A DNA stretch of 35,321 nt from Deltaproteobacteria bacterium (GTDB lineage: Bacteria > Desulfobacterota > Syntrophia > Syntrophales > Smithellaceae), in the NCBI GenBank assembly GCA_022703375.1, contig JAKLDS010000022.1, positions 1 through 35,321 on the forward strand. Direction: 5' to 3'. A program made the translations under genes and the position numbers. The notes beneath the pieces are model-generated. The model ran no database searches and was not told the origin of the DNA. It saw only the letters and a list, made by a program, of their open reading frames with translations. Below are positions 24,756 through 29,350 of the stretch, one piece after another (the first letter of the stretch is position 1; each line of letters begins with the position of its first letter).

Positions 24756-26420
24756 ATGGTTACGGCTCTGGAAAAACAGATAAGTAAGAGGCGTCTGCGC
24801 CTGCTGATTTTTTTCCGGCTTGGTGTAAGTACCCTGCTTTTGGGAATTGCTTTTTTCCTTTACTGGAAAAGGTATGACCTTCATATTTCTGATACTGCTA
24901 TTTATTTCTTCTATCTGATTATCGCCGCAATATACCTGCTTTCCCTGATTTATGCCCTGATGTTAAAATTTGTTCAGGGCTTGCGAATCAACGTCTATGT
25001 TCAGGCATCATTTGACATAATTATCATTACTTCCCTCGTCTATATGATGGGAAGCCTGCGCAGCAATTATTCCGTTCTCTACACCATGATTATCATTTAC
25101 GCCGCCATTTTTCAGGGGCGCAAGGGGGCTCTGATTGTCGCTTCCATGGCCGGGATTGCTTACGGCCTGCTGCTGGATTTTGAATTCTACAAGTTAATCC
25201 CCCCGATTTCGGCTGTGGAATACGATTATAAACTGGTGCCCGGTGATATTATTGTCCGCATTGTGATTCATATCGCTTCTTTTTATATTCTGGCATTTCT
25301 CGCCAGTTATGTAGTTGAGCAGGAAAAGAAGACCAGATCGCTTCTGGAAGAAAAGGAATCGGCATTTAATCAATTGGATTTGCTCTTCAGCAGCATTATC
25401 GAATCGGTGGATACAGGAGTTATGACTCTTAATCTGGAAGGCCTGATTAAATCATTTAATCGCGCGGCTGAAGAAATAACGGGATTTCCCTTTGCCGAGG
25501 TCCGCAATCGAAGAGTTAAAGACGTATTGCCGGAATTTGAGACTGTGCTAACGGCCGGCAAGACAAAAAACAGAATTGAAATAGTGATTGCCGGGAAAAA
25601 TGAAAAGAAGATTACCCTGGGTTGTTCTGTTTCTCCTTTGCGCGAAAAAGATTCGCGAATAATCGGTAATATTCTGATATTTCAGGATTTGACTGAGATA
25701 AAAAAGATGGAGCAGAAACTGGAACAGCAAAAAAGGCTGGCTCTGATTGGCGAGATGGCGGCGGGGCTCGCCCACGAAATGCGCAATCCCCTGGCGTCCA
25801 TCACCGGTTCCATTGAGCTCTTAAAGCAGGGGCTGCAACTGGAGAAAACGGAAGAACGACTGATGCAGATAATTTTGCGCGGGCGTGATCAGCTGGAAAG
25901 CTTTATCCGCGATTTTCTCCAGCTTGCCAAGCCCATTCCTCTGACGCGCGGGAATATTCTGATTAAAGAAATTGTGGAAGATGTGCTGGAGAATCTGAAG
26001 CTTTCTACCGACTGGAATAATGAAATTAAAATCAGCCTGGCTATGGAAGAGAAGGCCAGCGCCTTTGCCAACCGTGAAGAGATTCGTCAGGTTGTCCGCA
26101 ATCTGCTTCTGAATTCCCTTCAGGCGATGAAAGAAGGAGGAAAATTATCCGTTGCCGTGAAAACGAGGTTTGAGGACGGCAAAGAATATTCCGAAATTAT
26201 CATTGCGGATGAGGGCTGCGGCATTGCAGCGGATATTTTGCCTAAAGTATTCGAACCGTTCTTTACCGATAAAGACAGGGGAACTGGCCTGGGCTTGACG
26301 ATTATCGGCAGAATCGTGGAAGGTTATGGCGGAAAAATATGGCTGGAAAGCAAAGTTAAGCAGGGCACAACCTGCCGGGTGTGGCTGCCCGGCGCGAAAA
26401 GAGAAAATCAGCAAAATTAA
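24756..26420 (+). CDS. Membrane sensor histidine kinase with PAS domain, PilS-like
   Basis: 554 residues. Residues about 15-190 contain six hydrophobic helices with short loops, as in PilS. A PAS domain follows (about 208-315: FNRAAEEITGFPFAEVRNRRV), then HisKA with the phosphorylated His in GLAHEMRNPLASI (near 340) and an HATPase domain with N box NLLLNSLQAM, DEGCGI and TGLGLTI. It autophosphorylates and would pass phosphate to the regulator encoded next. AGAGGGG precedes the ATG. Signals sensed are unknown; membrane topology without a large periplasmic domain suggests sensing within the membrane. PilS proper is supported only by layout and by the partner; other NtrB-type kinases are possible. 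Confidence 0.9.
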   Translation: MVTALEKQISKRRLRLLIFFRLGVSTLLLGIAFFLYWKRYDLHISDTAIYFFYLIIAAIYLLSLIYALMLKFVQGLRINVYVQASFDIIIITSLVYMMGSLRSNYSVLYTMIIIYAAIFQGRKGALIVASMAGIAYGLLLDFEFYKLIPPISAVEYDYKLVPGDIIVRIVIHIASFYILAFLASYVVEQEKKTRSLLEEKESAFNQLDLLFSSIIESVDTGVMTLNLEGLIKSFNRAAEEITGFPFAEVRNRRVKDVLPEFETVLTAGKTKNRIEIVIAGKNEKKITLGCSVSPLREKDSRIIGNILIFQDLTEIKKMEQKLEQQKRLALIGEMAAGLAHEMRNPLASITGSIELLKQGLQLEKTEERLMQIILRGRDQLESFIRDFLQLAKPIPLTRGNILIKEIVEDVLENLKLSTDWNNEIKISLAMEEKASAFANREEIRQVVRNLLLNSLQAMKEGGKLSVAVKTRFEDGKEYSEIIIADEGCGIAADILPKVFEPFFTDKDRGTGLGLTIIGRIVEGYGGKIWLESKVKQGTTCRVWLPGAKRENQQN

Positions 26421-26444
26421 TATTATTCCCCTGAGGTTTTGCCC

Positions 26445-26480
26445 GGGGATAATTACCCGCATCTCTGCGGGATAATTAAG
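26445..26480. repeat. Direct repeat and hairpin between kinase and regulator genes
   Basis: GGATAATTA occurs twice, flanking the perfect stem CCCGCA-TCTC-TGCGGG (26456-26471). Further on, ATCGGGATT is repeated at 26506-26514 and 26557-26565. No T-run follows, so this is not a standard terminator; it may affect mRNA stability between the paired genes. Confidence 0.4.
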
Positions 26481-26607
26481 CTTGCAAACCACGATAGCAA
26501 AGCATATCGGGATTCGAGCGTCATTAAGACCAGCAAATTTCAGTGCATTCCGCTTTATCGGGATTTCTGAGATTGGGGTCTCATTAAAAGCAGGACGAGG
26601 TGCAATA

Positions 26608-27975
26608 ATGGCGAAAATTCTGGTTCTGGATGATGATCAGGGCATGAGAGAATTTCTGGAAATAATGCTCAGCAAAGAGGGATACGATGTCACCACTGCC
26701 GATGATCCCGCGAAGGCGATTAATCTCTGCCGCAAAACGGCTTATGATCTGGTAATTACTGATTTGAAAATGCCGAAAATTGACGGGATAGAATTTCTCA
26801 AAGCAATCAAGGATCAGCGGCCGGAGACAATCGTAATCCTTGTCACGGCTTACGCTTCGGGAGATACGGCGGTCAATGCGATGAAAGAAGGCGCTTACGA
26901 TTATGTGGAAAAAGGCGGCAGCATTGATGATATGAAAAAAATAGTTCACGATGCCCTGTTGAAAAAAGGTCTGGTTGCCGAAAACCAATTGCAGAAAAAA
27001 AGAACACCGGAAAATCAGTTCAGCGGCATGCTGGGCCAGGCCCGCGAAATGCAGAAAATCTACGCGATGATAAAAAAAGTGGCGAATACTCCGGCCAATA
27101 TTTTAATTCTGGGAGAAAGCGGCACCGGCAAGGAACTGGTTGCCCGTGCGATTCACGATAATTCCGATCGGGCAAAAATGTCTTTCAAGGCAATCAACAG
27201 CGGGGGGATTCCGGAAAATCTTTTGGAAAGTGAGCTGTTCGGCTATATGAAGGGCTCTTTTACCGGAGCTTATGCCGATCGCCCCGGCCTGTTTGAAATT
27301 GCCGCGGGGGGTACGATGTTCCTCGATGAAATCGGCGAGTTGCCGCCGGTTTTGCAGGTGAAACTGCTGCGGGTGGTTCAGGAAAAAACATTCCGGCGCA
27401 TCGGCGGCTCAGAAGATATTAAAGTTGATGTGCGCATTATTTCAGCCACCAATCAGAATTTGGAAGAGAAAGTGAGAAAAGGGGAATTTCGGGAAGACCT
27501 TTTCTATCGCCTGAATGTCATTCCCATTCATATGCCGCCTCTCAGGGAACGCAAGGAAGATATTCCGCTCCTGACCAATCATTTTATTGAAAAGTATTCC
27601 CGGGAATTCGGCAAGGAAATAAGGACGATATCTTCTTATGCCATGCAATTGTTAATGGAACACGCTTTTCCGGGCAACATCCGAGAACTGGAAAATATCA
27701 TTGAACGCAGCGTGGCGATGGAAAGTTCCAATATAATCCTGCCGGAAAACCTTGTTTTGTCCACCGGTGAGACGAATTCAGCCACAGCGCTTGCTGCCAA
27801 TTTGCCCGAGAAGGGGATTGATCTGGACGAGGAACTGAAAAAATTTGAAAAGCAACTTATTGAAAAAGCTCTACAGAAAACGCGCGGTTCCAAAACAAAA
27901 GCCGCTGAATTTCTTCATGTTACTTTTGACTCGTTGCGCTATCGCATTGAAAAACTTGGTATTGACCAGAATTAA
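26608..27975 (+). CDS. Sigma-54-dependent response regulator, PilR-like
   Basis: 455 residues: receiver, AAA+ sigma-54 activator and Fis-type HTH. The ATG at 26608 ([10 protein letters not shown]) is chosen because GAGG lies nine bases upstream and the receiver begins at once; a 42-residue upstream extension of the frame has no such support. The receiver has an intact acidic pocket (Asp8-10), Asp52, Thr80 and Lys102, although Lys is followed by Gly-Gly rather than Pro. Walker A is GESGTGK, the sigma-54 loop is GSFTGA (Ser in place of Ala, a form known in PilR-like proteins), and Walker [11 protein letters not shown]. The HTH sits in the last 40 residues. It is the likely partner of the preceding kinase. 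Targets are unknown, but type IV pilin genes are the family precedent. Confidence 0.92.
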
Positions 27976-27977
27976 GC

Positions 27978-28005
27978 TTGACAAAAGCAATACAAACTTG
28001 GTAAT
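27978..28005 (+). promoter_or_regulatory. Possible sigma-70 promoter for the panC leader
   Basis: TTGACA (27978-27983, perfect) and GGTAAT (28000-28005, four of six) are separated by 16 bases. Transcription would start near 28012, giving a leader of about 100 bases that begins at the pan-motif candidate. Confidence 0.45.
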
Positions 28006-28011
28006 GCTGTA

Positions 28012-28046
28012 ACAGCTTGGATCCCGCAAGGGACTGAGACGAAGGT
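28012..28046 (+). ncRNA. Candidate pan motif leader RNA upstream of panC
   Basis: TCCC-GCAA-GGGA (28022-28033) forms a stem capped by a GNRA tetraloop, flanked by unpaired bases on the 3' side (CTGAGACG) and an outer short stem (GCTT with AAGG). The pan motif is a known conserved bulged hairpin found before pantothenate genes in deltaproteobacteria, Firmicutes and Chloroflexi. Position before panC and hairpin type match; I have not been able to align it to the covariance model. Confidence 0.55.
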
Positions 28047-28073
28047 AAAACAAAAAATAATCAATTTAAGCAA

Positions 28074-28102
28074 CCTCTCGTCTCCCAACGAGGGGTTTTT
28101 TT
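28074..28102 (+). terminator. Intrinsic terminator in the panC leader
   Basis: CCTCTCGT (28074-28081) pairs with ACGAGGGG (28088-28095) with one G-U pair, followed by seven T residues. It ends only 11 bases before the panC ATG, so it could attenuate panC as well as end the upstream regulator transcript. Confidence 0.75.
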
Positions 28103-28113
28103 GTGGAAAAATT

Positions 28114-28971
28114 ATGAAAATAATTAACTCAGCCAGGGAAATGCAGCTTTATGCGGAAGATCTGCGACTGCAGGGCAAAAGGATTTCTTTCGTGCCGACC
28201 ATGGGTTATTTCCATGAGGGCCATCTGGCGCTGATGAGAGAGGCCAAAAAGACAGGCGATTGCCTGGTTGTCAGTATTTATGTCAATCCGACGCAGTTCG
28301 GCCCGAAGGAAGATCTGGCGAAATATCCTCGCGATTTTGATCGTGATTGCCGGATGGCGCAAAGCGTCGGAGTTGACGTTATCTTTTTCCCGCCCAATGA
28401 AGAAATGTATCCCGCCGGTTATCAGACATATGTCAATGTAGAAAAGGTAACGCTTAATTTATGCGGGCTTTCCCGTCCGGGGCATTTTCGCGGCGTCACT
28501 ACGGTTTGCGCCAAGCTGTTTAATATCGTTAAACCCCATGTTGCCGTTTTCGGCAAAAAGGATTTTCAGCAGTATATAACTATTAAAAGGATGGTGGCCG
28601 ACCTTAATCTTGACTTGGAAATAAAGGGACTGGCAACAGTCCGGGAGGCCGACGGCCTGGCCATGAGTTCCCGCAATGTCTATTTGAAGGAAGAAGAAAG
28701 AAAATCGGCGCTGCAATTATCGCGGTCTCTGCAACTTGCGCAAAAACTTTACGCCGGCGGCGAAAAAAGCTCAAAAATTATCATCGCGGCAGTGACAGAA
28801 CTAATCAAAAGCGTCCCTTATACCGATATTGATTACGTTAAAATATGCGATACGGAAAATCTTGCCGATGTTGAAAATATAATAGGCGAATCGGTTATCG
28901 CTCTGGCAGTGCGCGTCGGCGCCACCAGATTGATTGATAATCATGTTTTTGGTGAGTATTTAAAATTTTAA
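28114..28971 (+). CDS. panC: Pantothenate synthetase
   Basis: 285-residue cytoplasmic ligase that joins pantoate and beta-alanine using ATP, the last step of vitamin B5 synthesis. Signatures are [18 protein letters not shown] (nucleotide HxGH motif), [16 protein letters not shown], the FGKKDFQQ segment and [13 protein letters not shown] (the KMSKS-like SSR). Length equals the family norm. No classical ribosome site is visible in front of the ATG because the terminator tail lies there; GTGGAAA is the nearest purine stretch. It is followed by panD after 22 bases, so both make beta-alanine and use it in one operon. panB is not in the window. Confidence 0.96.
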
Positions 28972-28993: not shown

Positions 28994-29350
28994 ATGCAAA
29001 GATTCATGTTGAAATCAAAGATTCATCGGGCCACTGTGACGGATGCCGATTTGCATTATGAAGGCAGCATTACCATTGATGAAAAGCTGCTGGAAGCGGC
29101 GGCAATGATTCCCTATGAAAAAGTAGATATCTACGATGTTGACAACGGCGAAAGATTTTCGACTTACATAATTAAGGGCAAGCGCAACTCGGGCACGATT
29201 TGCTTAAACGGCGCTGCGGCGCGCAAAGTTGCCAAAGGGGACCTGATCATTATCGCCTCTTACGTCATGCTGGAGGATAAAAAGGCCGTCAACTGGCACC
29301 CGAAATGCGTACTGGTAGACGGTAAAAATAAAATAAAAAAAGTTCGTTAA
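28994..29350 (+). CDS. panD: Aspartate 1-decarboxylase
   Basis: 118-residue pyruvoyl enzyme that converts aspartate to beta-alanine, the substrate of PanC encoded just upstream. The proenzyme cleavage site is Gly24-Ser25 in [10 protein letters not shown], which becomes the pyruvoyl group. The conserved Tyr58-region motif ([10 protein letters not shown]) and [12 protein letters not shown] are present. An AGGAGA ribosome site precedes the ATG. Confidence 0.96.

Follow-up and report, generated by a model that had tools for sequence, protein, structure and literature searches.

Introduction

The pan motif (RF01749) is described as a hairpin with two conserved bulged adenines and a GAAGG tail, located before panB, panC or panD in deltaproteobacteria, Firmicutes and Chloroflexi (Weinberg et al. 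2010, PMC2864571). Most pan RNAs, though not all, consist of tandem hairpins, and a dimeric protein-binding motif has been suggested; the motif was marked 'Y' as a cis-regulatory element and '?' as a switch, and the supplementary alignments of that study are said to include terminator annotations (PMC2864571). A pan motif also precedes panB-panC-panD in Bacillus methanolicus (PMC4342826), and CoA riboswitches are absent among the known riboswitch classes (Breaker 2022, PMC9971707). The pan motif has been an orphan of vitamin B5 gene leaders since 2010: the papers that we searched provide neither a mechanism nor a ligand for it, in agreement with a first-pass annotation of the DNA analysed here, which had considered both its function and its ligand unestablished. 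Subscription papers fell outside the scope of this search, so that a report among them is possible, and papers on Bacillus subtilis CoA metabolism and on premature terminators make no mention of the motif.

Two types of leader RNA offer models for such an element. In the purine and TPP riboswitches of the Firmicutes, the aptamer shares a strand with an antiterminator, and the antiterminator shares a strand with an intrinsic terminator. In the PyrR, HutP and L10 leader attenuators, a short conserved hairpin governs the choice between a downstream terminator and an antiterminator.

The panC-panD locus and its predicted promoter

The window (the whole stretch of DNA analysed, 35,321 nt of a contig from a deltaproteobacterium of the Smithellaceae, order Syntrophales) encodes on its forward strand a pantoate--beta-alanine ligase (panC, 28114-28971, 285 aa; PF02569, E=1e-105, TIGR00018) followed by an aspartate 1-decarboxylase (panD, 28994-29350, 118 aa; PF02261, TIGR00223). 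The panC-panD leader sits between the start codon of panC (28114) and the stop codon (27975) of a response regulator gene. This upstream region (24756-27975) encodes a PilS-like histidine kinase (6TM_PilS) and a sigma-54-dependent response regulator of the PilR/NtrC type.

A promoter was predicted on the forward strand at 27978-28007, with a -35 element (TTGACA, 27978-27983), an 18-nt spacer and an extended -10-like element (TGG TAATGC, 27999-28007), which would place the transcription start near 28013, at the base of the pan hairpin. The output of a generic consensus promoter scan did not include this promoter. Each of the 45 order-level panC leaders with the hairpin also has a TTGAC motif 5' of it, mostly at a distance of 35-41 nt. 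From 5' to 3', the leader comprises the hairpin with two bulged adenines (28013-28041), the GAAGG tail, an A-rich linker and an intrinsic terminator (28072-28102), followed by panC. Attenuation by a leader peptide was rejected for this leader, which contains no ATG between the predicted transcription start and panC and no plausible upstream open reading frame. Translational control with the GAAGG tail as a Shine-Dalgarno sequence was likewise rejected, since the tail lies some 68 nt from the panC ATG.

A single-hairpin variant of the pan motif

The first-pass annotation had put forward a pan-motif candidate in this leader, and covariance-model searches bear it out in a specific form. Scanning the window with Rfam at gathering thresholds returned nothing, and in a permissive scan RF01749 reached 21.8 bits, below its gathering threshold of 36.2, with a good fit only for the second half of the model (the 3' hairpin). 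The score falls below threshold because this leader has just the 3' member of the hairpin pair that the Rfam model describes. A single-hairpin model (R1) was built from 61 sequences, all of them from outside this order (Firmicutes, Nitrospinota, Nitrospirota, Chloroflexi and other Desulfobacterota); in this training set 99.4% of the stem cells pair, with 26 double changes versus 6 in shuffles. R1 matched the hairpin and its conserved GAAGG tail at 28013-28045 on the forward strand with 29.1 bits (E=2.2e-6 in the window, 1.6e-4 over the whole genome). In the complete 2.57-Mb genome it returned only two good matches, the panC leader and the leader of a DUF2520-panB operon, and across the order it matched 146 of 155 genomes, most of them twice.

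The pairs of the hairpin (numbered by the last two digits of 280xx) are G15-C40, C16-G38, U17-A37, U18.G36, G19.U35, G20-C34, U22-A33, C23-G32, C24-G31 and C25-G30, closed by a GCAA loop, with A21 and A39 bulged in the R1 alignment. The predicted fold also bulges A21, and gives the G15-C40 pair, on which the A39 bulge depends, a probability of 0.15-0.30. Comparison of pan hairpins revealed that both bulged adenines, the U.G wobble and the stem are near-invariant, and that the apical loop is free in length and sequence. The panC leader hence agrees with the description of the pan motif in its stem with two conserved bulged adenines and in the pantothenate genes panC-panD directly downstream, and, with only the 3' half of RF01749 matched, we file the element as a single-hairpin pan variant, not as a full member of RF01749. 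The tandem form was rejected for this leader: the -35 element lies 36 nt upstream of the hairpin and leaves no room for another. A loose regular-expression search for tandem copies yielded scattered weak matches only.

Departures from this arrangement were observed elsewhere. The panC leaders of two genomes among 154 of the order (L027 and L036, genomes G014 and G030) lack the pan hairpin and present AGTCCAnGCAGGCCCGGACAAAACTGGAC followed by a terminator before panC. Furthermore, the panB leaders of Desulfuromonadales (L149, L155, L157, L189, L201 and others) contain a conserved GCCCGGAAC..n..GCCGGAGC element about 55 nt upstream of the pan hairpin, which in L157 aligns to the first hairpin of the Rfam model.

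Three mutually exclusive pairings in the panC leader

The 3' strand of the pan hairpin is also the beginning of a second predicted helix. The exact complementarity between GAGACGA (28036-28042) and TCGTCTC (28078-28084) proposed in the first-pass annotation was confirmed in the sequence, as was the location of TCGTCTC in the 5' arm and loop of the terminator. Its extension of this pairing stands in the single bulge but not in length, as the helix comprises eleven pairs instead of ten: G36-C84, A37-U83, G38-C82, A39-U81, C40-G80, G41-C79, A42-U78, A43-U76, G44-C75, G45-C74 and U46-A73, with C28077 bulged. The switch strand (28036-28046, forward strand) thus encompasses the 3' strand of the pan hairpin and the GAAGGU tail, and its partner (28073-28084, ACCU[C]UCGUCUC, identified by sequence, duplex energy and folding) takes up the entire 5' arm and some of the loop of the terminator. 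The terminator itself is formed by a stem pairing 28072-28081 with 28088-28097, a loop at 28082-28087 and a U-run at 28096-28102, and was found independently by a consensus scan (28072-28097, seven T). According to RNAduplex, the tail pairs with its own terminator 5' arm and loop with an energy of -15.5 kcal/mol; the same tail reaches only -5.4 +/- 2.4 kcal/mol with 281 other hairpins that resemble terminators, taken from the window and from further contigs with pan leaders, and none of these hairpins attains -15.5 kcal/mol.

Equilibrium folding of the growing transcript predicted a succession of these structures. The pan hairpin forms before the others (P 0.98) and stands alone until about 28078, the antiterminator dominates with the polymerase at 28082-28092 (P 0.99-1.0), and the terminator prevails from 28096 on (P 0.98). 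Over 184 leaders, the mean number of pairs between tail and terminator at these three stages goes from 0 to 6.8 and back to 0.4, that of the lower pan stem from 5.6 to 2.4 and 5.1, and the terminator ends at 9.8 pairs; under strict per-leader cut-offs, 78 of the 184 satisfy all three predicted stages. The mean energies in 44 order-level panC leaders are -12.1 kcal/mol for the pan hairpin, -15.3 for the antiterminator and -17.1 for the terminator. These are equilibrium predictions of a process that in reality is kinetic and, given that the full transcript favours the terminator at equilibrium, read-through would require kinetic trapping. As judged from prediction and comparison, the panC leader hence contains mutually exclusive structures like those of a riboswitch expression platform.

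Conservation and compensatory change across pan leaders

The comparative analysis encompassed 201 distinct pan leaders, 185 of them with a detectable terminator, compiled from relatives in the family and order, a sample of the phylum and a pattern scan of public genomes; Firmicutes and Chloroflexi are thinly represented. The arrangement of hairpin, antiterminator and terminator was observed in most of the 201, mainly in Desulfobacterota and also in some Nitrospinota, Nitrospirota and Firmicutes. For tail and terminator arm of the same leader, the mean pairing energy is -13.1 kcal/mol, versus -7.9 for shuffled arms. When partners were permuted among all leaders, the mean was -12.45 kcal/mol (sd 0.14) and none of 5000 permutations was as good as the true pairing. 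The difference is wider among the 65 leaders with atypical tails (-13.07 for own partners versus -11.05, sd 0.27, for permuted ones; 0 of 5000). Permutation within 44 close relatives gave a weak signal (p ~0.02), since these sequences barely vary and a wider set is needed. Variant tails are matched by variant arms in L056 (GACAGAGGG/CCUUCUGUC), in L147 (GACAGAAGG/CUUUCUGUC), in L057 and L083 (GAGACCAG/CUGGUCUU) and in one clade of the family (GACGAAAGG/CCUUUCGUC), and a few leaders, such as L091, L117 and L038, present poor pairing between tail and arm.

The three strands could be compared directly at the base following GAC (position b), at which the pan 5', switch and terminator bases are C/G/Y in 169 leaders, G/C/G in 4, U/A/U in 3 and A/U/A in 1, under a mapping that maximises pairing and therefore leans towards structure. 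With the register fixed by an alignment of the terminators only, 77% of the cells pair, as opposed to 35-56% when the strands are slid by 1-3 columns. In this fixed register 2 of the 11 antiterminator columns exceed shuffling (3 and 4 of 2000), in shuffles that ignore kinship among leaders that are not independent; the strong conservation of both switch strand and terminator arm keeps most columns from covarying. A 5' arm resembling CCUUCYG was found in 143 of the 185 leaders with a terminator, against 6 of the 281 other terminators. Terminators are not usually conserved in this way, and a second pairing partner would produce just such conservation. The complementary segment on which the first-pass annotation had based its proposal is hence kept, and covaries, across related leaders, as seen in the partner permutations, at position b and in the fixed register.

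Genes downstream of pan leaders

Nearly all the leaders (183 of 201) map within 500 nt upstream of panB (90), panC (86), DUF2520 (6) or panD (1). The second pan leader of the genome (L119, contig G000:C54, 13644-13740, reverse strand) precedes an operon encoding a Rossmann/DUF2520 protein and PanB and follows the same design, with a pan hairpin ending in GACGGGAUGG and a terminator beginning with GCCUUCCGUC. Its switch pairing has an energy of -15.3 kcal/mol and contains GACGG/CCGUC in place of the GACGA/UCGUC of the panC leader, so that a compensated base-pair change distinguishes the two leaders within a single cell. Although the genome also has a gene for a PanE-like protein (PF08546) on another contig (G000:C52), the DUF2520 protein (PF10727/PF10728) of this regulon is a possible ketopantoate reductase.

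Pan leaders were also observed before other genes. Four deltaproteobacterial leaders (L111, L122, L145 and L163) precede hxlB-hxlA, encoding the formaldehyde-fixing enzymes 6-phospho-3-hexuloisomerase and 3-hexulose-6-phosphate synthase, and in L111, L145 and L163 the lower pan stem is altered with compensation (TGGCC..GACCG, TAGC..GACTG). PanB also uses up a one-carbon unit, so that the link to hxlB-hxlA may be functional. In Clostridia, three leaders (L131, L183 and L192) precede a BioY-family gene and a type III pantothenate kinase gene (coaX); L131 and L183 are additionally followed by another ECF S-component gene, with a further promoter-like sequence between leader and genes. In L063 and L174 the leader is followed first by an aldehyde ferredoxin oxidoreductase family gene, and in L174 then by panB. 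Finally, a leader from the Dehalococcoidia (L164, 3604-3650) has no terminator and carries its GGAAGG tail immediately 5' of the panB ATG; in this one sequence the tail could act as a ribosome-binding site, in a putative translational version of the switch.

Discussion

We conclude that the panC-panD leader is in all likelihood a transcription attenuator with the pan hairpin as its anti-antiterminator, a reading to which we assign a probability of roughly 0.8. With the alternative pairing kept in almost 200 related leaders, the pan motif very probably acts by halting or permitting transcription. RNA polymerase would start right at the pan hairpin (28013-28041). The 3' strand of the hairpin and the GAAGG tail (28036-28046) could alternatively engage the terminator's 5' arm (28073-28084), and the resulting antiterminator would keep the terminator (28072-28097) from folding, allowing transcription of panC-panD. 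Should the pan hairpin be held closed, 28073-28084 would be left free, the terminator would form and transcription would stop, a scheme that probably serves for feedback repression of pantothenate synthesis when pantothenate or CoA is sufficient.

Sequence comparison and predicted folding establish that the leader has three pairings which exclude one another, that these are conserved and change in a compensatory manner, and which genes make up the regulon. We infer that these pairings switch in vivo, that the signal holding the hairpin favours termination and that this signal is a pantothenate- or CoA-related metabolite, or a protein responding to one. Since conservation is highest within the hairpin, the hairpin form would be what is recognised, and the signal would hence repress; the likely output is repression when such a signal, via protein or metabolite, holds the hairpin. 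The switch between termination and read-through of panC-panD envisaged in the first-pass annotation thus gains support from predicted folding and comparison, with switching, direction and signal at the level of inference.

Other readings of these data differ widely in probability. Terminator 5' arms generally show slight pairing to purine-rich tails (mean -5.4 to -7.5 kcal/mol), and the complementarity could in principle be a coincidence or a mere reflection of pyrimidine-rich arms, but this is highly improbable: the controls refute it, none of the 281 reaching the observed energy, and variant tails pair in a partner-specific manner, with three-way compensation. A switch operating in the opposite direction, in which a factor favours the antiterminator and activates expression, or a constant level of termination without any signal, would be in line with the preference of the finished leader for the terminator at equilibrium even without a factor, and the sequence alone does not set the direction. 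We nevertheless regard these options as unlikely, given that conservation is strongest in the pan hairpin, also at bases outside the antiterminator, which argues for recognition of the hairpin form, and that a constant attenuator would not require conserved hairpin bases.

There are about even odds that the signal is an RNA-binding protein, perhaps dimeric, which binds the pan hairpin and responds to pantothenate or CoA in the manner of PyrR or HutP, so that the RNA itself senses nothing. The hairpin is short (~30 nt), with a free apical loop and near-invariant bulged adenines, U.G wobble and stem, and a dimeric protein-binding motif was suggested from the tandem form (PMC2864571). The order studied here uses the single hairpin only, which is compatible with this proposal, yet a small ligand pocket could just as well be made up by the twelve invariant positions of this doubly bulged helix. 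That the hairpin is itself a minimal metabolite riboswitch for pantothenate, pantoate, CoA or another pathway compound is a tentative proposition, in keeping with its wide distribution and extreme conservation, its steady association with pantothenate genes, the riboswitch-like three-way switch and the naming of CoA among cofactors without a known riboswitch (PMC9971707). Against it stand the lack of a ligand in the literature searched, the small size of the hairpin, which in this order has no visible pseudoknot or second domain, and the '?' assigned to the motif as a switch by Weinberg et al. (PMC2864571). We weigh a protein somewhat above direct metabolite sensing, considering how small the hairpin is, that its loop varies freely and that pan hairpins occur in tandem elsewhere. 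Rather doubtful is the broader proposal that a minimal one-hairpin riboswitch directly senses CoA, pantothenate or another pathway compound and governs the entire pantothenate regulon, acting by attenuation in most lineages and, in some Chloroflexi, possibly through access to the ribosome site.

If the RNA does sense CoA or pantothenate, a recognised gap among riboswitch ligands would be closed; if the signal is a protein, a new RNA-binding regulator of CoA supply would be revealed. An output by antitermination is supported in several bacterial groups, and the compact one-hairpin version (~90 nt) offers a simple construct, with in vitro termination as a read-out, for finding the signal.

With respect to known systems, the panC leader resembles RF01749 in its hairpin with two bulged adenines, its GAAGG tail and the pantothenate genes downstream. 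It differs in comprising the 3' hairpin only, at which the transcript apparently begins, whereas the Rfam model consists of two tandem hairpins and ends at the GAAGG tail; the terminator/antiterminator platform lies outside both that model and the main text of the study that described the motif (PMC2864571). The leader is unlike attenuating riboswitches in relying on a single sensing hairpin of ~30 nt without a known ligand, and like them in the sharing of strands between hairpin, antiterminator and terminator. It similarly departs from the PyrR, HutP and L10 leader systems in having no known regulatory protein, and matches them in its short hairpin design. The motif is thus already known, and it is the attenuation platform that is new relative to the papers searched.
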